Virus record (IMG/VR): IMGVR_UViG_3300034279_001376
Coordinates: 1-44,775 of that record
Origin: a virus
Length of the DNA stretch: 44,775 nt
Direction: 5' to 3' (one strand)
The notes beneath the pieces were generated by a model. The model was given only the letters and a program-made list of their open reading frames with translations. It was not told the DNA's origin and did no database searches. Below are positions 3,801 to 44,086 of this stretch, one piece after another (positions within the stretch are counted from its first letter, which is position 1; each line of letters starts with the position of its first letter). Both the position numbers and the translations under genes were made by a program.

Positions 3801-6800
3801 GTAACTATCCAAGTAAATGTTATGAATATACGGTTTTACTTGTTCATTGAGACTCATAGCGTATTTTGAACAATTTAAAACAGACAAGTTCTCTACCCGC
3901 AAGTTCTTGCAGTTTGTAAAACAAAAGCCATAATCGACAAGTGCTCCACTATAAGAAGATGGATTAAATGTACCAAAAGTGTAAGTTTCTCCCGGAGGTG
4001 ATTGTTTATCCCATATTCCACCCAATATTACAATATTTGAGTCTGGGGCTCGACTGTTATTCTCTCCGTCATTCCACAACATCAAGGCAGCCCAATCGTT
4101 ATTCTTTTCAATTGTTGTGGATCTACCTAGTTGTATTTTTGTATTACTTTTTAATTCAAGCGGTTTAGAAAAGATAAACTTTGCAGTGTTGTCAAAGCAA
4201 TATATATTGTTAAACACATCTATCCCTTTTTGCAATCTTTCGTCGTCTGCAATTGCGTCGTTTTTGATGCAACCCAATTGGAAGAAATTAACGCCCCCAT
4301 CGGTATTTGGTAGCAACCTTGCCCTCCGTGAGCCAACAGCAAATATAACGATATTATCAACTGTTCCACTTGCTTCTATAATGTAATTTGCTCCGCCATT
4401 ATCTCCAGAAGTATAGAATCCGTCTGTTGAAACGACTCGACCTGTTTCCCATTTACTGTAAATTGCTGAATTAGAAAAACTTGAAACAGTGCTAACTTTA
4501 TATAAAGAATCTGTTGGCAAGGAAGTTGGAATCCAAGTGGCACCATTCCATTTCATAACCTGATCTGATGCTGCTCCCATACTAGATAGATCACCAGCAC
4601 CAATAAGATTAGCAGTAAGTGCTTGACCAGAAAGACTAAGATAACTTGCTCCTGTTTTTGTTACTGGTGAGTGACTACTTAATTCAATAGCATCTAAATC
4701 TACTGCTTGTGTAACAGTAATAAAATCTGATTTTGCTTTATCTGCACTTATCATCAAACCTGCTAAGAGATTAGTAGCGGCAGGAATTGTAGCGTCTGTG
4801 CCTGTGTTGGATAAAACATCTAAAGTGGTTGTAGTTCTATTGGCAACTGAAAGGTCAGTAATACCAGAACTAGGTGTTGTTGGAACCCAGTTAGTTCCGT
4901 TAAAAGCCAGAACCTGATTAGTAGTGGCTCCTGATGCTGCTAAATCTGTGTTAGTTATAGAACCTGATAAAATCGTGGCGGTTAAGTTTTGTCCCGTGAG
5001 AGTAAAATCAATTATAGTTCCGTCTGTGACAGTCAAAGGTGCATGGTTGTTAGCACCTAACTGCTGGAGAGCAGCATTGATATTATCTATGGTAAAATAA
5101 CCTCCTGTATCTGTAATGAGAATACTTGAAGAATTTAATCCTGATTCTATAACATCAATAGTAACAGGGGAAGCACCTAGAATTGCTCCTGTACCATTTA
5201 CTACATCTATTCGATCTGTCCCTAATAAATTATTAGTAGTAACAGAACCTACATTATCGTTTTGAGGAATCCATGCAGTTCCATTCCATTTAAGAACTTG
5301 ACCAGTAGTTGCTGATTGTTGTTGTAACTCAGCCGTAATATCATTACCAGTCTTCGTTAGATTAATGGTGGTTCCATCTGTTACAGTAGTAGATTCTGGT
5401 GCAGAGTTATTTACCACGTAAGGACTTGCTATTGTACCAGCACCTGTTACTGAGATATTGGTTCCAGAATTTACTTTCGTTTCAGAGCCGTCAACAGTTG
5501 GTAAAGTAAAGTTAGGATAAGTACCTGTTGCACCTGTAATAGTCACAGTTTGGTCAGGGGCATTATTAGTTACTGTGTAGTCTTGTCCTACTTTAACCAC
5601 TCCAATTCCTGTTCCTGCTAGTACTCTTTGATTATTAAGGGTGTCAAGTTTACTCCACAAAGCAGCAGTTAATACACCTGCTCTGCTTGCATTTGCTGCT
5701 AGAATTACAGGGCCACTTGCTGCACCAGCATTAAAATCTAAACCAACATTTACTGTACTTGGGGTTGCAGTTAAACTTGTTACAGTGGTGTAATTAACCC
5801 ATGCAGATCCATTCCATCTAAATGATTGATTATTTGTTGCTCCGTTCTGGTTTATATCAGCATAAAGAATAGTTCCGTTTGCTATATTAGTTGAGTTGAT
5901 CTGGTTAGCAGTTAGAACTTGACCTGCTAGAGTTATGTAAGTTTCCCCTGTGATTGTGACTGGAACGTGACTATTTGTAGCCAGCGTGTTTAAGTTAACT
6001 GGGCTTGTTACTGTGATATTGTCTAGTTTAGTTTTATCATCTGCTACCAACAATCCCGCTAGTAAATTAGTGGCAAAAGGAAGTGTAGCATCAGCACCAG
6101 TGTTTGAAAGTACATCAAGTGTAGTGGTAGTCCTGTTACTTACAGATAAATCAGTCACTCCAGAACTGGGAGTACTGGGAGACCAATTTGAACCATCCCA
6201 ACTTAATACTTGTCCACTTGTGGCTCCCTGTTGTTTAATCTCGGCTGTTATTTGTCCTCCTGTCTGGGTAAGATCAATAGTAGTTCCGTCTAAAATAGTG
6301 GTATTTTCTGGAAGAGTATTTACTATTTGAATGGATGAACTAGTCCCAACCAATCCTACACCTGCTCCTCCTGATATAGTCACATCTGTGCCATCACTAC
6401 TATTTAGAGTGAGTGGAGAAGCAGTGCCTGTTACACTAAGATTGGCAGGTTGATTAGTCACTAAACCACTGTATAAAGAGTTGGGAGAATTATCTCCTGT
6501 GTTAGTTCCGCTTAAATTAGAACCTGCTATTGTCCCAGAAGCATTTACAGAAGTAGGAGTAATAGCCCCTAAGCCTATGACTAATTCAGGAGTAGTCCCC
6601 GGATTGTTAATTGTTGTAGTTATCCCATTGGAAGGAGTTGCAGAAACATTTGTAACTGTGCCTTGAGGAATATTAAAAGACCCACCACCATTACTTAAAG
6701 TAATAGTAGGTGCACTGTAAGAAATTGTTTGCAATTCATTAGTATTGGAAAGATCTCCTGTGTTTGTTACTTGGTAATTTTGTCCAGTCCTTAACACACT

Positions 6801-30593: not shown

Positions 30594-33162
30594 TGTAATC
30601 TGTTTTTATGAATGATTGAATGCTGTTAATTAACACATTAATGTCCGTTGAATTGTCTCCACCAAATTTGTCAGGAATTACAGTGCCATCAGGTTTAGTT
30701 ACCCTGATGACTTTAGTGCCACTAGCAGATGGGGTTATTTCAAACATATACCCTAAATAGTTAGATTTGTAAGGTTTGTATTTAGCAGCAGTATTCATCA
30801 TAACATTTCTACCATCCTTGGGTTGAGTCTCAAACAAATATGCTTTACCCGGTACTACTTTTTCCATCACATTACCATCTCTTGTTGGCATCATTATGTT
30901 TGCATCATCCAGTTGTTTTGCGTACTCATTCTTGAACTTTACAACACCTTTATCACCAGAACCAGAAGGAATAGCTATTGACTCAATGGCACTAACTCCA
31001 AACAGAGTCCTAAATTGGTCCGATCCTAACTTAGTAGCAGCACTAATCTGCCCCTGATAAGGGATTATTTCATCAGGAGAACTTGTTTGCACATAACCAA
31101 ACTGCTGATACTGTGGGAGTTTGTCTGCAAGCATAGACTTTAATACTGGGTCTTCTTGAGAATCAGCATAAGTTTTTAGGACTTGTTTTAAGCCAGCATC
31201 ATTGTCTAAGTAAGTTTTTGCAGTGACTTTACTACGAGGAGTAACACCATACATAGCACCAGCAGCAGGGCTTTCAATACTTTCTGTTTGTCTTTCTTTC
31301 TTTAAATCAAACAATAATTCACTCAGTTTTTTCTTCTGGTAATTTCCAGTGTAAGGTTGGCCATTAATCTTAGGACTAGTTGGTACGTTAATGTATACTT
31401 CTCTACCTGAGAGAAAATCTGCTTCACTTAATTGGTCACCATTTTCAGTTCTTGCGTATGGGAGTATGTTTTTAGTCTCAGTCTTTGCAGATCTGAGTGC
31501 CCCATTAATCTTTCCTAACTCTTCTGTTAAGTATTCAGAGGTGTAATCATTGTCTGATTTGTTTTTAATCAAAGCCTCTGTTAGAGAGTTAGGGTTGTTT
31601 CTTTGTTCTATTTCCCAAACTCTGAATGCTTCTTTATTAGGGTTTCCGTTTACATCATAAGCCAAATTCTTGTTAGTCTGGAATATGTCCCACATATCCG
31701 CATAATAATTCCCTTTGTGTTTTTCGTAAAAATTCCTCCAATTTTCAGCCTTAATAGTGTTATTGTCAAGAGTAGGAGCAGCAATTATATTGTCTGATTT
31801 CTTTGCATATTCTTCTTGTAAAGTTACCAAGCGATTAAACCCACTCAGCAATTCTTGTTCATTCTTAGAAATGTCTGCTACATCTGACCACAATGAAGGG
31901 TCTTCTTTCCCTTCTTTTTCTTTTAATGCTTTAGTTGCTGCTACTTCTTGATCTAACTTATGTTTGATGTACATTCTATTAGTCTGGCTGTCTTCTCTGA
32001 ATTTAGTTTGAGCCATCATAGCATCTATCTTTTTTTGGGCAAGATAATTAGCATCCGGGTTTATCTCGTTTACTTCTTTTTTCCACGAGAAAGCATTCAC
32101 AGCATCTTTAACTTTTTCAGCCTTTTTTACCTGATACACATAACCTAACATTTCGTTGTTGGATAGTTTCAAGAAATCTTCTTTAGTTTTTTCCGCGTTT
32201 GCTCTTCCTGCAACATTTGACTCTAGGATTTGGAGGTTGTTTTTGTACAATTCGTTCTCTTTAATTAATTGTGCCTCTTCCTCTGGTTTGAGAACAGTTT
32301 TTAATTTTTCGTTGTTGAACAGAATCCGTTGAGAAATTTCTGAAATTCTTGCAGTTTCTACACGGTTTTCAGCATCTGCTACTGACTTATATTGGTCATA
32401 AAGATAACCTTTGTCACCAGCCTTTAGAATCTCGTATTTACTCAAAACCTCCAACTGTGAGATGTCATCAGCACCAAATTGTTCATCATACAATGCCTTA
32501 ACCCTCTCCGGTGAGACTCCTTCATAGATGTGTTTAGTTAAGTATCCAGTAGGACTGTTTTTTTCATCCACAGACTGTCTATCATTGCTTACGTAGTCTG
32601 CGTGTAATAATTTACTCAGGTTTGCAAGAGGAACCTTTAAATCTTTGTAAGGAGTGTAACTAGATTTCCTAAAGTTAGGATCAGTCACCTGAGACAAGCC
32701 TTTTTGCATAAAATCGTAATAACCTCCATCCCAGTTCATCCACACAAACTCATTTATGTCATTGTACCCATTGTCTTTTCTTCCAGAATTTTTAAGGGTC
32801 TGAACATCATTGTATTCTTTCTGGTATTGTTTAGAGAGTTGGCTTGCTTTAATTAACTCAGTGTCAGTGCTTATCTTTTGGAACAATTCAGCCACCTTGT
32901 TTTGATTTTCCATAATGGTCAAATCCCCTAAATCCCCTGAAAGATCAGCAGATAATTGCTTATTGTACTCAGCAAGTCTTTCTGCTCCCTCAAGATTAAG
33001 CATAGAAATGTTAAGACTCCTGTTTTGGAGTTGATTAACCGTGTTTAAAGCATTGGCTTGTTCTTGATTCTTCTTTGAGAGTATGGCCATCTCAAGATTC
33101 AAGTCATAATTTGACTTCTGGTATTGAGGCAGTACTCCTTGGCTATATTCGTTTATATACAT
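30574..33162 (-). CDS. Helical virion cargo protein (862 aa)
   Basis: The ATG at 33162 shares one base with the preceding stop (TAATG). The first 110 residues are rich in Gln, Asn, Leu and Lys with helical periodicity (LNTVNQLQNRSLNISMLNLE), fitting a long coiled coil. The middle is charged and mostly helical. The last 150 residues look beta-rich (KPDGTVIPDKFGG) and may be a small globular end domain. There are no Cys clusters, signal peptide, membrane segment or catalytic motif. Crassvirales genomes carry large helical cargo proteins between the muzzle and polymerase genes, and this one fits that place. Its frame ends in TAG followed immediately by an in-frame TGA. Confidence 0.65.
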   Translation of the reverse strand: MYINEYSQGVLPQYQKSNYDLNLEMAILSKKNQEQANALNTVNQLQNRSLNISMLNLEGAERLAEYNKQLSADLSGDLGDLTIMENQNKVAELFQKISTDTELIKASQLSKQYQKEYNDVQTLKNSGRKDNGYNDINEFVWMNWDGGYYDFMQKGLSQVTDPNFRKSSYTPYKDLKVPLANLSKLLHADYVSNDRQSVDEKNSPTGYLTKHIYEGVSPERVKALYDEQFGADDISQLEVLSKYEILKAGDKGYLYDQYKSVADAENRVETARISEISQRILFNNEKLKTVLKPEEEAQLIKENELYKNNLQILESNVAGRANAEKTKEDFLKLSNNEMLGYVYQVKKAEKVKDAVNAFSWKKEVNEINPDANYLAQKKIDAMMAQTKFREDSQTNRMYIKHKLDQEVAATKALKEKEGKEDPSLWSDVADISKNEQELLSGFNRLVTLQEEYAKKSDNIIAAPTLDNNTIKAENWRNFYEKHKGNYYADMWDIFQTNKNLAYDVNGNPNKEAFRVWEIEQRNNPNSLTEALIKNKSDNDYTSEYLTEELGKINGALRSAKTETKNILPYARTENGDQLSEADFLSGREVYINVPTSPKINGQPYTGNYQKKKLSELLFDLKKERQTESIESPAAGAMYGVTPRSKVTAKTYLDNDAGLKQVLKTYADSQEDPVLKSMLADKLPQYQQFGYVQTSSPDEIIPYQGQISAATKLGSDQFRTLFGVSAIESIAIPSGSGDKGVVKFKNEYAKQLDDANIMMPTRDGNVMEKVVPGKAYLFETQPKDGRNVMMNTAAKYKPYKSNYLGYMFEITPSASGTKVIRVTKPDGTVIPDKFGGDNSTDINVLINSIQSFIKTDYNATRKP

Positions 33163-36100
33163 TATTTTATGTCTATTTGTTTTGCAGAACCATCTGCACT
33201 TACTAGAATAACCATGTTGCCCTGTTTTACTAAACTGGCCCCATTGGGGAGATTTTGTGTGGTTTGGTCCGATTGAGCAAACTGGTCTAAAACATTACTC
33301 TTTAAATTAGAGGTGCTTTGAGGCTTATATTTAGTTCTACCAGTAATAGCACTTGTTTCAAAATAAGGACTCAATTCATTTGCTACTCTAAGTTCATCAG
33401 CGTATCCTAAATAGTTCTTAACAGACCCTACTATGGCTTCTTTTTGGTTATTCTTAAATCGTGCTTTAAGGTCTTCGACACGTGCTTTTCTTTGTCTGTA
33501 ATTGTCTATGTCATTTATACGAGCATCTATGTTTGAATCTTGATACCCTTGTAATTTGTTCAAATCAGCACTCTGTTTCTGGTCATACCTTTGAGCATTG
33601 TTAAAATCAACCTGTGATTGATTACTTTGAGACTGTGCAGTAACTTCTGCTATGCGAGCCTGTTTAACACTCTCAGGTAAATTGGAGTTCATAATCCCAT
33701 TAATTTGAGTCTGAGCCACTCTTTGAGTTTCCTTGTTATCATAATCATAAAACCGATTAAACAAAGGCTGCTTTTGGTGGTCATACAATATCGGATTGTC
33801 TATTTGTAAGTTATCAGAAAGTACTACTCCTATGTCTAATATAGTTCCTGCAAGTTTGGAGTTGATTCCAAATTTGTCTTTGTTTCGTGCAAACCAACTT
33901 TGTCTAGCCTCTATTTTTGGGTCACTAGAAGTAGGTTCATTGAATGTAACAGTCCTTTCATCTACTCCATTAGGGTTAGGTAGATAGGGCATTTTTTCCT
34001 GAAATGTATCAGAGCCTAATTCTGCAAGTTCAGCAGGTGTGGGCATCTGTTCAGAATAAGTAGGCTTAAACCCTGTTCTTGGTGTAATAACTGGAGCATT
34101 GGGCTGAGTTACTGGTTTTATTGAATTACCTGACAATTTTCTTGCTGTCCTTGCTTTTTGAACAGGCGTAGTAGGTTGAGCAATTGGCTGAACAGGTTCA
34201 ACAACTGATTGAGTTGGTTGAGAGACTTGAGTAGGCCCAGCAATAGGAAATTGAGGACCTCTGTAACCATTGTCCCAGTTTTCCGTAACAGGCTGAGTTC
34301 TCATGCTTGGAAATTTATCCTTGGTTCCTAATTGATAACCAGTTTTAGTTTCAGGCGTATTCCCAACTAGAGGGAATTCTGGACCTCTATAAGAAGATTC
34401 TTGTACAGGCGCAGAATAAACTTTAGTATAGTTACCATCACTTTCTCTTTTGTAGAAGTTCTTAGTAACAGGGTCATACAATTTACCATCAGGCAAAGTC
34501 TCAAATCTGTCTGAAATTCCTGAATGGTTAAAGTATTTACCCTCTTGGTATTTACCACCTTTTTGATAAGATGTTTGAAGTTTTCTGCCTACTTGTTTTT
34601 GGTCTTTCAAACTTTCTTGACCTTGAAATACAGTCTCTAACATGGCTAGTTTATTGTTTAAAGAAAACTTTGCCGTCTCCCTAGCATAAGGGTCTTTAGA
34701 ATCTTCCAATACTTTGAACTCCTTTTTAGTGTCGTACTTTTTAGAAGCCTGTGCAAAGGTAGTTTTCTTTTTTACACCCAGTATTTTTTGGAGTTCTTCT
34801 GGGACAACCAGATAATCAGAGAATACTTTTTCTCCGTTTTCAAGGATAACAGGAGTACCACCAGAACTGTGTCTTTTACCATCTACGTGTTTTAAAGCAC
34901 CATCTAGCCCAAGCACAGTTTCTCCTTTTTCTAATTCTGCATTGGATATTGAAACAGGCACTTGCAGTTGACCACCATCTTGAAATACTTGTTCGTACTG
35001 GTCTAAAAAAGCATCTTGTTCTTCTGGACTTAACCCACTTAAATAAGTTTGCATTTCACCACCTTCTTGTTTTTCTCTAAACCTGTCTTTTGATTTAGAT
35101 TTTCCAGAAGGGTTACGGGGTATATCACCAAAGAATAACATATCTGCTACGTGAGGCACTTTACCTGCTTCCATGTCCAAATAATATTGGTTACTCCCTA
35201 CATAACCAGTAGTGTCAGATGGAAAATTACCGTCTTCAACTCTTTGTCTTTGGCTTCTTTTGTCCATAAAGTTTAAAAGGTTTGCACCCGGATCTACACC
35301 ACCAGATTGTAGTTTATATTCTCTTACTTTATTTCCTTTGAATTTGTGCATACCTGTGTTTGGTTGTAATATTTTTGCATCTCCTTGGTCACTTACTGCA
35401 AGTATTGGAAATGCCATATCTTTGGTTGTGATTAATGGGAAGTTTATATCAAGAAACTTTCTATCCTTATAAGGAGAGTTTTTCTTGTAACCCAGTTTTG
35501 AAATTCCTCCTTCTTTCCCGTACTGGCCCATAGAGTTTTTTTGAGTGCTGGAAAAAAAATTCAGAGCGTCTATAACACTATTTTCATCTTTTGTATTTTG
35601 CAGCAACCTATCAAAAAGAAAATCTCCTTTTAGTTTTTCTTTTGCTTTTTCAAGATGTTCTTTTGTAAAGTCTTCTGTATTAGCATCATAAATACCATTT
35701 CTGTACAACAAAAATCTTACTGCATCCACATCTGCTTTGTACTCAGTTGGAGTGTCATCGTGACTAGCATCGTGCATTCCTTTTGGATTAGATTTTAGTT
35801 TCTGAAAAATAGCCTGATCCCTCTTGCTCATTTCTCTTTTACCTTTGTTTAATAAATGGCTTATTTCATGCGCTACTGTACCTGCACTGTCTTCTTTTGT
35901 GTTAATAAGAATTTGGTCTTCTATTACATTGTAAGAAGTCCCATTTTCTATCCAATCTTTTCTTAATTTATCTTTCCAGTCAAGTTCTGCTACATCTTTG
36001 ATTTTATAGTCTGAGTAATTAGCACTTTTAAAATTAGGAGATGTTAATGCTTGATCTACTTCATCTATTAGAACTTTAGGAAAAGATTTTTCGTGTCTTT

Positions 36101-36350
36101 CTTTTGCTTTTGGGGAATCGTAGTAATTGGTTAAAAAATTAGATGCTGCTTTTATCGGGTTTTTGTCCAAAGCAGGATCTTGATACCAATCGTAAGTACC
36201 ATCTTTTTTTCTAACAACACCAAAGTCTTTACCAGTAATTTCATCTTTTACAATAAATTGTCCTGCATTGCCTTTTCTTGCTTTGTTAGAATCAAATTTA
36301 ATATTCCCCAGCATTTGAATATTCGAGCCTCCTGCTTGGTATTTTTTCAT
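33162..36350 (-). CDS. Virion zinc metallopeptidase with Q-x-G-G linkers (1062 aa)
   Basis: Residues 161-165 are HEISH in an AGTVAHEISHLLN helix, the canonical zinc-binding HExxH. TEYKAD at 202-207 supplies a plausible third ligand Glu with a downstream Asp, as in gluzincins. The peptidase is followed by a long, probably extended region. It contains Q-x-G-G motifs near residues 5, 348, 428, 457 and 596, a repeated YRGPEFPLVG / YRGPQFPIAG pair (654 and 696), and a Pro/Gln-rich stretch at 705-760. The last 200 residues are Gln/Asn-rich and helical. The ATG at 36350 overlaps the previous stop (TAATG). It may process other cargo proteins during assembly or act on host proteins after ejection; the substrate is unknown. 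Peptidase identity is strong. Confidence 0.78.
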   Translation of the reverse strand: MKKYQAGGSNIQMLGNIKFDSNKARKGNAGQFIVKDEITGKDFGVVRKKDGTYDWYQDPALDKNPIKAASNFLTNYYDSPKAKERHEKSFPKVLIDEVDQALTSPNFKSANYSDYKIKDVAELDWKDKLRKDWIENGTSYNVIEDQILINTKEDSAGTVAHEISHLLNKGKREMSKRDQAIFQKLKSNPKGMHDASHDDTPTEYKADVDAVRFLLYRNGIYDANTEDFTKEHLEKAKEKLKGDFLFDRLLQNTKDENSVIDALNFFSSTQKNSMGQYGKEGGISKLGYKKNSPYKDRKFLDINFPLITTKDMAFPILAVSDQGDAKILQPNTGMHKFKGNKVREYKLQSGGVDPGANLLNFMDKRSQRQRVEDGNFPSDTTGYVGSNQYYLDMEAGKVPHVADMLFFGDIPRNPSGKSKSKDRFREKQEGGEMQTYLSGLSPEEQDAFLDQYEQVFQDGGQLQVPVSISNAELEKGETVLGLDGALKHVDGKRHSSGGTPVILENGEKVFSDYLVVPEELQKILGVKKKTTFAQASKKYDTKKEFKVLEDSKDPYARETAKFSLNNKLAMLETVFQGQESLKDQKQVGRKLQTSYQKGGKYQEGKYFNHSGISDRFETLPDGKLYDPVTKNFYKRESDGNYTKVYSAPVQESSYRGPEFPLVGNTPETKTGYQLGTKDKFPSMRTQPVTENWDNGYRGPQFPIAGPTQVSQPTQSVVEPVQPIAQPTTPVQKARTARKLSGNSIKPVTQPNAPVITPRTGFKPTYSEQMPTPAELAELGSDTFQEKMPYLPNPNGVDERTVTFNEPTSSDPKIEARQSWFARNKDKFGINSKLAGTILDIGVVLSDNLQIDNPILYDHQKQPLFNRFYDYDNKETQRVAQTQINGIMNSNLPESVKQARIAEVTAQSQSNQSQVDFNNAQRYDQKQSADLNKLQGYQDSNIDARINDIDNYRQRKARVEDLKARFKNNQKEAIVGSVKNYLGYADELRVANELSPYFETSAITGRTKYKPQSTSNLKSNVLDQFAQSDQTTQNLPNGASLVKQGNMVILVSADGSAKQIDIK

Positions 36351-36769
36351 TATGACAAGAATTTAAGTTTGTATTTAGTCAATGCTAGTTTTTCTGTCAA
36401 GTTATCAATCATGTTTTGTTGAAAACTGTGAGGGAAAACATAACGATTAGAATCCACAAAAGTACACATTTCTGTGATTATATCTTTGTTTATTTCTGAG
36501 GATACTATTTTTTCGTGCGTAAGATTCAAAATCTCCTCTGTCTGAGCAGTTTCAGTAAGACTGTCACACAACTCTGATAGAGTGTCATAGAGGTCTCCTA
36601 TGGCAAGATGTGCAGCAAATGAACCTGTTCCTGTAACTTTAAGATGAAGGAATTTGGTGGCTGTCTGAAAGTAAAATAATTTAGAAAGGAAAGAGGAAAT
36701 GGTTACAGGTTGTAACTCCTTCTCTTCTTGACTATATGGTACTTCGTTTGATACTTTTAATTTAAACAT
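36350..36769 (-). CDS. Small Dps/ferritin-like protein (139 aa)
   Basis: Residues 34-76 read like the first helices of a Dps-type ferritin: a hydrophobic/aromatic run, His42, a VTGTGSF turn, His54, then LYDTLSELCDSLTETAQ. In Dps proteins the equivalent pattern (H..W.v.G..F...H..f..lyd.l.e..D.iaE) carries the iron ligands. The second half is helical and also resembles a ferritin-like bundle. The length is slightly short of typical Dps. The gene sits 8 bases after the lysozyme-like gene and overlaps the peptidase gene by one base. It could be a virion or assembly component that keeps the four-helix fold without ferroxidase function. The fold call is moderate and metal binding is unproven. Confidence 0.5.
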   Translation of the reverse strand: MFKLKVSNEVPYSQEEKELQPVTISSFLSKLFYFQTATKFLHLKVTGTGSFAAHLAIGDLYDTLSELCDSLTETAQTEEILNLTHEKIVSSEINKDIITEMCTFVDSNRYVFPHSFQQNMIDNLTEKLALTKYKLKFLS

Positions 36770-36777
36770 ATTATTTT

Positions 36778-38052
36778 TTATCTTTTTATGTAATCTAATA
36801 TATTCGGGTTTCCGTACTTCTCTTTCTCAGATTGAGACACTTCAAAATTACCAGTTACTAACCTTTTTTTAGTGTCTGCTAATCCCCTGTAATGCAAAAA
36901 TCTTATCATTTCTTCTTCTGTAAATCCGTACTTATCTGCGTATGGTTTTAACTTTTTAATCTCTGGCTTGTAAATATCATTCACTACGTAGTTCATAAAA
37001 CTTTCTTGTGTTTTGGGGGAGTTTTTGAACTCGTTCATTATCTCTTCATTGGTTCCATCTATGCCCATGTACTCACCTATTTGTTTGGCCCAATACTTAG
37101 GATGGAATTGGTACTTACCTGTGGTTCCAGTTGTAGGGTTAATCACAGAATAATCACCTCCTGATTCGCTCTGCCCTATTCCTGCAATTACTCCGTCTGC
37201 ACTCATGCCCGAATCTGATGAGTAATTTTCATACTCGTCTTGAATTGGGGAATACTCATTTTCGTCTTCAAACACCCATTTTAACAGTTCTTGGTTTTGA
37301 TTTACTTTCATTTCTTGTTCTGAGTTTTCAGTACCAAGAAAAGCATTAGGATCAAAATCAGTGGAGTAAATGTCTGTTTGGTTTGTAATTTGAGAAGCAT
37401 CCCCACCTTCTTGAGCCATTCCAGAAGCCATAGTTTTAGCAAGTCCTACATATTGAGAGGCTGCTTGTCCTACTGATGATATTCCTTGTTGTTGGGTCTG
37501 CTTGTAACGGTTGATGTTTTGTTGATTCAACCCTTGATAGTATTCTTCCCACTGTCTTTGGATGTCTTGATTGGTGTCTTGAAGATTTAGATTAAACCCG
37601 CCTTCTTGAAAAGAATAAGGAGTATTTACATACTCGTTATTCCTTATATCCTGTTTTCTTTCCTCAAGATCAGCCTTATAAGCATTGTCTAATCTTTTTT
37701 GCTTTCTTTTTTCTTTGAAAGATTTACCTATTTGATAACCACCATAACCTGCTTGTGCAAACATCCCCAGAATAGGAATAGAACCAGCAGTTTGCCCTAT
37801 TATGTCAAGCGTAGATTGAGATTGAGATTGGGATTGGGATTGAGTAGGAGGTGTTTGAAAACTTTGTCCTTGAGGTATTTGAGAAAGCATATTTGGAATT
37901 CGAGCATTTTGTAATGCTTGAGCCTGCTGTGCCTGCTGGATTGCAGGAGCAGTCATGCTTTGTACTTGACCCAAAGGTAACTGTGGTAATTGCTGGATAA
38001 CTCCACCACTTTGATATTTTTTTAAAAACTTTTTACTTCTTTCTGTTAACAT
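36778..38052 (-). CDS. Gln-rich virion protein with C-terminal transglycosylase/lysozyme domain (424 aa)
   Basis: Residues about 286-400 resemble lytic transglycosylase or Rpf-like lysozyme domains: GIGQSESGGDY with Glu296 as the likely catalytic acid, then TGTTGKYQFHPKYW, and an ordered helical end (FTEEEMIRFLHYRG). The N-terminal 280 residues are low in complexity: Gln/Pro-rich, a five-fold Ser-Gln repeat at 71-80, a hydrophobic stretch IIGQTAGSIPILGMFAQAGYG at about 84-104 and a basic KEKRKQKR patch. Q-x-G-G motifs occur at about 14, 149 and 214. It follows the muzzle gene with a TAATG overlap. A tail-associated enzyme that locally cuts peptidoglycan during DNA entry is the natural role. 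No holin or signal peptide accompanies it, which argues against a lysis endolysin. Confidence 0.74.
   Translation of the reverse strand: MLTERSKKFLKKYQSGGVIQQLPQLPLGQVQSMTAPAIQQAQQAQALQNARIPNMLSQIPQGQSFQTPPTQSQSQSQSQSTLDIIGQTAGSIPILGMFAQAGYGGYQIGKSFKEKRKQKRLDNAYKADLEERKQDIRNNEYVNTPYSFQEGGFNLNLQDTNQDIQRQWEEYYQGLNQQNINRYKQTQQQGISSVGQAASQYVGLAKTMASGMAQEGGDASQITNQTDIYSTDFDPNAFLGTENSEQEMKVNQNQELLKWVFEDENEYSPIQDEYENYSSDSGMSADGVIAGIGQSESGGDYSVINPTTGTTGKYQFHPKYWAKQIGEYMGIDGTNEEIMNEFKNSPKTQESFMNYVVNDIYKPEIKKLKPYADKYGFTEEEMIRFLHYRGLADTKKRLVTGNFEVSQSEKEKYGNPNILDYIKR
37814..37843 (-). repeat. Hexanucleotide tandem repeat encoding (Ser-Gln)5
   Basis: Five 6-bp units read GATTGA or GATTGG on the plus strand, encoding alternating Ser and Gln in the lysozyme-domain protein. 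Loss or gain of a unit keeps the reading frame, so length could vary between isolates. Confidence 0.8.
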
Positions 38053-43603: not shown

Positions 43604-44086
43604 TTACCTGTGTGGATTATTGACTGATTTTAGATTCGGAAACACCAAAAAGTGCATATAACCTTTCTTGATTCTTTCCTTTAATGACATTCGGAGAGAG
43701 TAAGAACTTTTAAAATATCTTACACCACTCCATTTTGAAGGAATTAACAACAAGTGTGCTCTAAATACTAATCCTCCTGTTTGTACATTCCTAAGGTACA
43801 CTTTTTTGTTGGCTATTTTTGAAGATTTGTGGTCTATTGTTTTGCGTAAATTACCACTTACCCTCAATGTTCCCAAACCCTCGAAATAAACCCCGTCTGT
43901 ATTGTTTACTACCTCAGAGGCTATTAAATAACCAAGTTGCCTCAAACAATTTTCGGATACTCCTTTAGTCCCTATCACGTTATTTTTTAGGTAGGTACTA
44001 ATTGTGTCCTCACTGTAAAAGTTGTAATCACCTTGATTCTTTGTGGACCTGTATTCATTGTGAGGTGCTATGCAGTTATTGACCAT
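43604..44086 (-). CDS. HU/IHF-like DNA-binding protein (160 aa)
   Basis: Residues about 42-80 (VSENCLRQLGYLIASEVVNN and VYFEGLGTLRVS) have the helix pair followed by a beta arm start seen in HU/IHF-fold phage proteins, which usually carry a similar F/Y..GLGTLRI core. A basic stretch (RKTIDHKSSKIANKK) follows, then a hydrophobic strand pair and a basic C-terminal end. An IHF-like gene beside the tail-ring genes is a recurring feature of crAss-like genomes, which supports the call. It may bend packaged DNA or serve as a structural component. The fold identification is moderate because classical HU arm residues are not clear. Confidence 0.5.
   Translation of the reverse strand: MVNNCIAPHNEYRSTKNQGDYNFYSEDTISTYLKNNVIGTKGVSENCLRQLGYLIASEVVNNTDGVYFEGLGTLRVSGNLRKTIDHKSSKIANKKVYLRNVQTGGLVFRAHLLLIPSKWSGVRYFKSSYSLRMSLKERIKKGYMHFLVFPNLKSVNNPHR

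Follow-up and report, generated by a model that had tools for sequence, protein, structure and literature searches.

A Gly-Gly-centred motif, QxGG in one of its forms, recurs in C1-type cargo proteins encoded downstream of the muzzle gene of crass-like phages

The window analysed here, a stretch of 44,775 nucleotides, covers positions 1 to 44,775 of the virus record IMGVR_UViG_3300034279_001376 (IMG/VR; 131,429 bases in all), whose phage is crass-like, and two of its proteins, of 1062 and 424 amino acids (aa), together carry eight copies of the sequence QxGG. We found QxGG to be one form of a longer pattern that spans some nine residues, approximately P-[MKR]-[MYF]-[QAK]-x-G-G-[EQS]-[VIL], a real, lineage-wide motif that is wider than QxGG and occurs in proteins of known kind. 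With somewhat less than even confidence, we read the copies as a repeated short linear motif for docking and module boundaries in C1-class cargo encoded just downstream of the muzzle gene of crass-like phages. Crassviruses are described as the most abundant human gut viruses, and the holding and ejection of their cargo is so far a hypothetical model (PMC10172136). None of the titles and abstract beginnings searched, in a collection whose full texts are open-licence only, dealt with such a motif.

Judged from its sequence, the 1062-aa protein belongs to the C1 type of cargo (ejection) proteins and contains a CARG1 domain. Its match to the Pfam profile PF25725 (crAss_CARG1) was marginal, at 25.6 bits in one search (cut-off 27) and 28.7 in another, and a profile-profile comparison of the relatives' domain (31 sequences, window excluded) with eight C1 proteins gave a probability of 93.8 over 67 columns (E 1.8e-7). 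VIA-align placed residues 483-588 of the model on residues 439-552 of 7qog_M with a modest Z of 5.7 (below 8; rmsd 3.2 Å, 96 of 126 residues aligned), the only one of the 50 alignments shown that is confined to the portal-bound domain; a Foldseek search gave no match at E <= 0.001. From the muzzle gene onward the products measure 424, 139, 1062 (C1-type), 862, 1467, 147, 3176 and 1950 aa, in agreement with the crassvirus order of muzzle, C1, C2 and RNA polymerase (RNAP); the C2 and RNAP genes are putative, assigned by order and size rather than by a profile. The 424-aa protein, whose transglycosylase-like C-terminal stretch is akin to a protein of phage Lbo-JY46, and the C1-type protein are both of a putative particle-stored kind, thought to be ejected into the host.

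The original prediction had counted eight QxGG copies, with one at or near each N-terminus, and all of them are indeed present (YQAGG, LQSGG, KQEGG, FQDGG and YQKGG in the 1062-aa protein; YQSGG, FQEGG and AQEGG in the 424-aa protein). Composition-preserving shuffles of each protein gave 0.34 and 0.39 expected copies, with p values of 0.0005 (the lowest obtainable with 2000 shuffles) and 0.0055, respectively, and a Poisson p of 1e-6 for the two pooled. Eight copies in the 1,486 residues of these proteins compare with four in the remaining 37,738 residues of the record (Fisher p 1.8e-9), where the count is at chance level (5.9 expected). The supposed absence of the sequence from the other proteins of the window did not hold, as three further open reading frames (ORFs) have one copy each: a partial ORF at 1-869, a 2447-aa ORF (copy at 6255-6266) and a 160-aa ORF (copy at 43772-43783). 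The GG codons vary among the eight copies, which are therefore not a DNA repeat.

Direct searches with the 1062-aa protein found no relatives (tblastn among phages and a sequence search of the PDB gave no match, and a scan of viral contigs returned only an identical copy), and relatives were therefore collected through the muzzle protein. The 80 loci retained (L020-L099) are the best 80 of at least 530 candidates to a muzzle alignment headed by the window, and hence lean to its kin; their ORFs were called by length. All 80 were used for the gene-by-gene counts and for part of the residue-preference analysis (including proline at -5). Removal of 12 loci at >=80% muzzle identity left 68 for the GG-conditioned counts, the matrix test, the proline statistics, the zincin comparison, the module borders, the flanks and the dialect tests, the module analyses being made by module matches, and 11 genomes with <500 aa downstream of the muzzle were set aside where presence was scored, leaving 57. 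QxGG was found downstream of the muzzle in 54 of these 57 dereplicated relatives. Observed over expected counts in downstream genes 1 to 4 of the 80 loci were 94/22.8, 114/22.6, 47/20.6 and 14/8.0, while upstream and in the muzzle itself they were at or under expectation. Given GG, the 68 genomes showed 85/28.6, 98/34.8 and 44/27.3 in downstream genes 1, 2 and 3 (ratios 2.98, 2.82 and 1.61, with 0.74 in gene 4), 23/31.6 in the muzzle and 0/0.9, 1/0.5, 0/0.5 and 26/32.6 in four upstream bins. The enrichment on which the original prediction had staked itself is thus about 3-, 3- and 1.6-fold in the first three downstream genes of relatives, and N-terminal copies were about twofold enriched among relatives (14 vs. 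6.8 expected). In Lbo-JY46, four of the six QxGG lie in the two genes after the muzzle, two in each, and the remaining pair in a distant upstream gene. This phage (L013, PP438436) is recorded from a cyanobacterium, yet its muzzle and cargo genes are crass-like, and the host label may be doubtful.

Around GG, the downstream proteins prefer P at -5, M, K or R at -4, M, Y or F at -3 and Q, A or K at -2, then E, Q or S as the first residue after GG and V, I or L as the next, the residue-class bias stopping at -4 and +3 with proline enriched at -5. At 421 fitting sites, E follows GG with a frequency of.169 (background.065), and K, R and H are depleted (.052 vs..140). A matrix trained on half of the 68 genomes and tested on the other half, with HxxGG (the CARG1 core) and GGG runs excluded, fitted 42.4% of 660 downstream GG sites, as compared to 6.7% of 682 upstream sites and 6.0% after shuffling. 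Each of the 57 genomes in which 500 aa or more lie downstream contains at least one fitting site, and 54 contain three or more; in the window, seven of the eight copies fit, LQSGG being the exception. The matrix fitted only 2 of 151 GG sites in 39 C2- and RNAP-type cargo proteins of crass-like phages (chosen by annotation and gene order) and none of 51 in 42 Escherichia coli proteins (most genes of one 49-kb stretch); the downstream figure in this comparison, 43.5%, includes the training genomes. Twelve Crassvirales C1 proteins, that of phi14:2 selected by position, gave 23 fits out of 126, and eight proteins of phi4:1, Lbo-JY46 and csAssE gave 11 out of 34. Since C2, RNAP and E. coli controls hardly fit, the motif does not mark every cargo protein and is not a trait of helical proteins at large, and the suggestion of a general packaging tag is not supported.

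The 494 fitting sites fell into 379 flank clusters, with a flank identity within the same genome of.067 vs..062 at random, so that the motif reappears in unrelated surroundings and keeps a local consensus, the mark of a short linear motif. Residue preferences on both sides of GG within unrelated flanks suggest that something reads it.

Three modules recur in the relatives' downstream proteins, namely CARG1, IPS and GKFT. A CARG1 model of our own, whose seed came in part from the window, located the domain in 40 loci, and PF25725 gave no match in 13 environmental records; IPS and GKFT had no Pfam name in the proteins scanned. A fitting site stands before CARG1 in 21 of 35 cases (5.4 expected) and after it in 22 of 36 (6.9 expected), after IPS in 20 of 37 (8.3 expected) and after GKFT in 14 of 23 (8.4 expected), with none inside GKFT (0/24). 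AlphaFold2 modelled the 1062-aa protein at a mean predicted local distance difference test (pLDDT) of 58.8, with the CARG1 blocks mostly above 90. The copies had been described as lying all in extended regions, and this agrees with three of the five in the C1-type protein, which are in stretches below 50 pLDDT, but not with FQDGG and YQKGG, which sit at the C-terminal ends of helices flanking CARG1, in blocks whose pLDDT averages no more than 52 and 71. For the 424-aa protein, the model made from its single sequence (mean pLDDT 41.8) is too low in confidence to place its copies.

We infer a docking and boundary signal, which might operate as follows. The N-terminal half of the motif would end a helical turn, GG would stop the helix, and the acidic-then-hydrophobic tail would complete the site. 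A largely disordered chain with several copies could be anchored by them at recurring sites within the portal or the tail barrel, and the copies, by marking the start and end of folded modules, could let these be stored, unfolded and extruded in order. Among the three readings first proposed (protease site, packaging tag, docking motif), docking is the best supported, and docking inside the portal or tail barrel is preferred over a hinge because C1-class proteins carry the motif and C2- and RNAP-type proteins hardly do, and also because C1 of phicrAss001 is the cargo seen in capsid and tail alike (PMC10172136). In that phage the portal-bound ordered domain of gp45 comprises residues 425-552 (PMC10172136), and the sequence AFGG occupies 425-428, which suggests that a GG site of similar kind is ordered at the start of the domain. 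The occurrence of the motif across C1-class proteins and its near absence from C2 and RNAP cargo offer a concrete, mutable handle on which proteins load where, and a means to recognize ejection proteins without detectable sequence homology.

Several observations weigh against docking. The ordered AFGG of gp45 is under the matrix threshold, the fitting FAYGG (GG at 562-563) being beyond the resolved domain. There is no QxGG in the stretch of phicrAss001 read; csAssE-Sib has none in the genes downstream of the muzzle and no overall excess, and the loci L011 and L012, with three QxGG each vs. 2.6 expected, show no overall excess either. Non-fitting GG sites are also enriched in E after GG (.116 vs..065). 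Fitting sites are near chance before GKFT (10/23, 8.0 expected) and before IPS (7/35, 5.3 expected), and they occur inside CARG1 (16/36) and IPS (5/38), although those within CARG1 are by eye the EAEGGET core, and some are therefore false. As to the expectation that homologues keep the motif, BLAST pairs with 25-65% identity retained the two GG columns at.52 and.53, above their neighbours (roughly.28-.43), and both glycines in 323 of 832 cases (39%, vs. 24% for upstream QxGG); however, lone glycines elsewhere in the same proteins were kept equally well (.53), and the motif Q (.34) no better than Q elsewhere (.35) or than its neighbours. With GG kept like any glycine and Q like any Q, what lasts is the class of motif, its individual copies being gained and lost. 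A single reader would be expected to give variants specific to each genome, and these are weak at best: use of Q at -2 correlated between the first and second genes (rho.40, p.016, 35 genomes) with no clear link to the third gene (rho.27, p.16, 28 genomes), and in a test per position only -2 of 14 reached p.02, which was lost on correction. We regard as rather unlikely the bolder proposal of one repeated nine-residue GG address written in dialects (Q here and in kin, A in gut crassviruses) that would dock C1-class proteins at a recurring site within the portal and tail barrel and set the sequence of ejection, so that the whole taxonomic order, and phages outside it, would have a tail-loading code in common.

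The strongest alternative to docking, possible but doubtful, is that the motif is structural punctuation and has no partner: a helix C-cap followed by a flexible Gly-Gly hinge that separates modules and eases their unfolding at ejection. Helix formers are indeed enriched at -4 to -2 and breakers depleted at -4 to -1, two helices of the C1 model end at FQDGG and YQKGG, fitting sites border modules, and the free turnover of single sites would be tolerated by a hinge. A hinge, though, should also be found in helix-rich C2/RNAP cargo and E. coli proteins, which are practically devoid of the motif; the bias towards an acidic residue directly after GG and a hydrophobic one in the following position would be superfluous; and three of the five C1 copies lie in low-confidence stretches with no helix of at least four residues at the copy. 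The plain helix-cap idea was rejected, as it fails to explain the specificity relative to helix-rich controls.

Cleavage is unlikely. GG would here be a processing site cut in the prohead or during entry, in the manner of the AXE sites at which head and ejection proteins of SPN3US are processed (PMC10052503). The sequence resembles the sites of ubiquitin-like and adenovirus-type proteases, copies stand at domain borders and N-termini, the C1 protein has an HExxH region, and a 116-aa ORF elsewhere in the record (63287-63637; L004:19288-19638), with HECIH by eye and no Pfam match, is a possible small metallopeptidase. Proteases generally avoid proline at P1', and strict QxGG is followed by proline in 8 of 227 cases (0.6 of background), but over all fitting sites proline after GG is not clearly avoided (25/421, 5.9% vs. 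6.1% background). The HExxH region is present in only 11 of 57 genomes, and fitting sites are about as dense in genomes that have it as in those that lack it (3.66 and 3.99 per 1000 aa, respectively), so that the zincin was rejected as a dedicated protease. No peptidase profile matched in the 17 record proteins scanned, most of the rest, including the giants of 1950 and 3176 aa, falling outside that scan, and cutting at every copy would shred C1. The main text of the phicrAss001 paper has no word starting with cleav-, proteol- or protease, and the gp45 peptide ranges named in it cross no GG motif sites and so do not decide the matter (PMC10172136).

Homology without function, by which the copies would be inherited ends of shared modules spread by recombination, appears very unlikely. 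IPS often ends in EVPMAQxG(G), and fitting sites follow CARG1 and GKFT above chance; nevertheless, of the 1004 GG sites located apart from the three modules, 403 (40%) still fit, the flanks are unrelated and the codons of the window copies vary. Chance in Q- and G-rich disordered sequence, to which the 12% Q of the 424-aa protein might lend itself, is refuted for the family by the composition-preserving shuffles and the held-out genomes and has a negligible probability as a general explanation, although single copies may be due to it.

Features of the window named in the text (all on the minus strand; residue numbers refer to the encoded protein)
Feature	Position	Strand	Remarks
Muzzle protein gene, 1360 aa	38052..42134	-	PF25731 at 76.2 bits; landmark for synteny
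424-aa protein, first gene after muzzle, three QxGG	36778..38052	-	C-terminal transglycosylase-like stretch below Pfam cut-off
C1-type cargo protein, 1062 aa, five QxGG	33162..36350	-	PF25725 marginal; structural alignment to 7qog_M
QSGG (KKYQSGG), Q at 14, N-terminal region of 424-aa protein	38002..38013	-	Matrix score 3.3
QEGG (SFQEGGF), Q at 149, 424-aa protein	37597..37608	-	Matrix score 2.7
QEGG (MAQEGGD), Q at 214, 424-aa protein	37402..37413	-	Matrix score 3.4
QAGG (MKKYQAGG), Q at 5, N-terminus of C1-type protein	36327..36338	-	Matrix score 2.5
HExxH (zincin-like) region, aa 157-264	35559..35882	-	phrog_24249; zincin nature by motif and similarity
IPS module, aa 287-345, 59 aa, no Pfam name seen	35316..35492	-	Common to downstream proteins of relatives
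QSGG (KLQSGG), Q at 348, directly after IPS module	35298..35309	-	Under matrix threshold
QEGG (EKQEGGE), Q at 428, C1-type protein	35058..35069	-	Matrix score 3.6
QDGG (VFQDGGQ), Q at 457, end of predicted helix 442-457, before CARG1	34971..34982	-	Matrix score 4.5
CARG1 domain, aa 469-561 (own HMM); confident in model at about 461-590	34668..34946	-	HMM, model and 7qog_M alignment
QKGG (SYQKGGK), Q at 596, end of predicted helix 554-597, after CARG1	34554..34565	-	Matrix score 2.3

The two QxGG genes are separated by a 139-aa DUF5856 gene (window 36350-36769), a family that gave three matches in relatives, two far upstream of the muzzle and one directly after it. A 266-aa protein matched the ring protein 1 profile weakly (25.2 bits, cut-off 27), and the terminase large subunit ORF of the record (56700-59888; L004:12701-15889) seems to have an intein-like insert, as judged by eye from the translation. 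Among the modules, IPS occurs in 41 proteins, its matches among phages being confined to seven Cellulophaga records, and GKFT gave 32 matches in 31 proteins and overlaps phrog_20603 in two of those scanned. The HExxH region is mobile among the relatives' cargo genes, with three matches in one protein of L045. In alignments inspected by eye, the EGGETV-like and HSxGGTPL-like blocks of CARG1 look order-swapped between environmental phages and phicrAss001 or p-crAssphage. Flavobacterium phage Fpv1 (L017, gp31 and gp30), which its record does not class in Crassvirales, has a CARG1-like domain at aa 111-184 (E 5e-11) together with similarity to the muzzle.

Adenain and Ulp-type sites, (M/I/L)xGG and QTGG, share a superficial x-G-G likeness with the window motif, from which they differ in that proline is tolerated after GG over all fitting sites of the latter and no cognate protease was found among the proteins scanned. 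In T4, a capsid-targeting sequence serves as a signal on internal head proteins, and this sequence and the SPN3US propeptides resemble the window copies in being signals on internal, perhaps ejected, head proteins. The propeptides of SPN3US head and ejection proteins are cut after AXE and are N-terminal except in the protease itself (PMC10052503), whereas the window copies are spread along the chain and their cleavage is not supported. Closer likenesses come from Cellulophaga phage phi4:1, where gp40 and gp41, virion proteins according to mass spectrometry annotation, have the same synteny and account for five out of seven QxGG copies in the part that was read (four and one, respectively); IPS and CARG1-like domains are in gp40 and the HExxH region in gp41, a split between genes unlike the window. 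Finally, as compared to crassvirus C1 proteins (gp45 of phicrAss001; PF25725), the window C1-type protein has an extra IPS module and an HExxH region, and the 12 Crassvirales C1 proteins (9,266 aa) hold a single QxGG, their GG sites being by eye often [FY]AxGG. In both cases, nevertheless, the gene follows the muzzle gene at a short distance and precedes the C2/RNAP-type genes, and both are modular proteins with a CARG1 domain and GG sites adjoining it.

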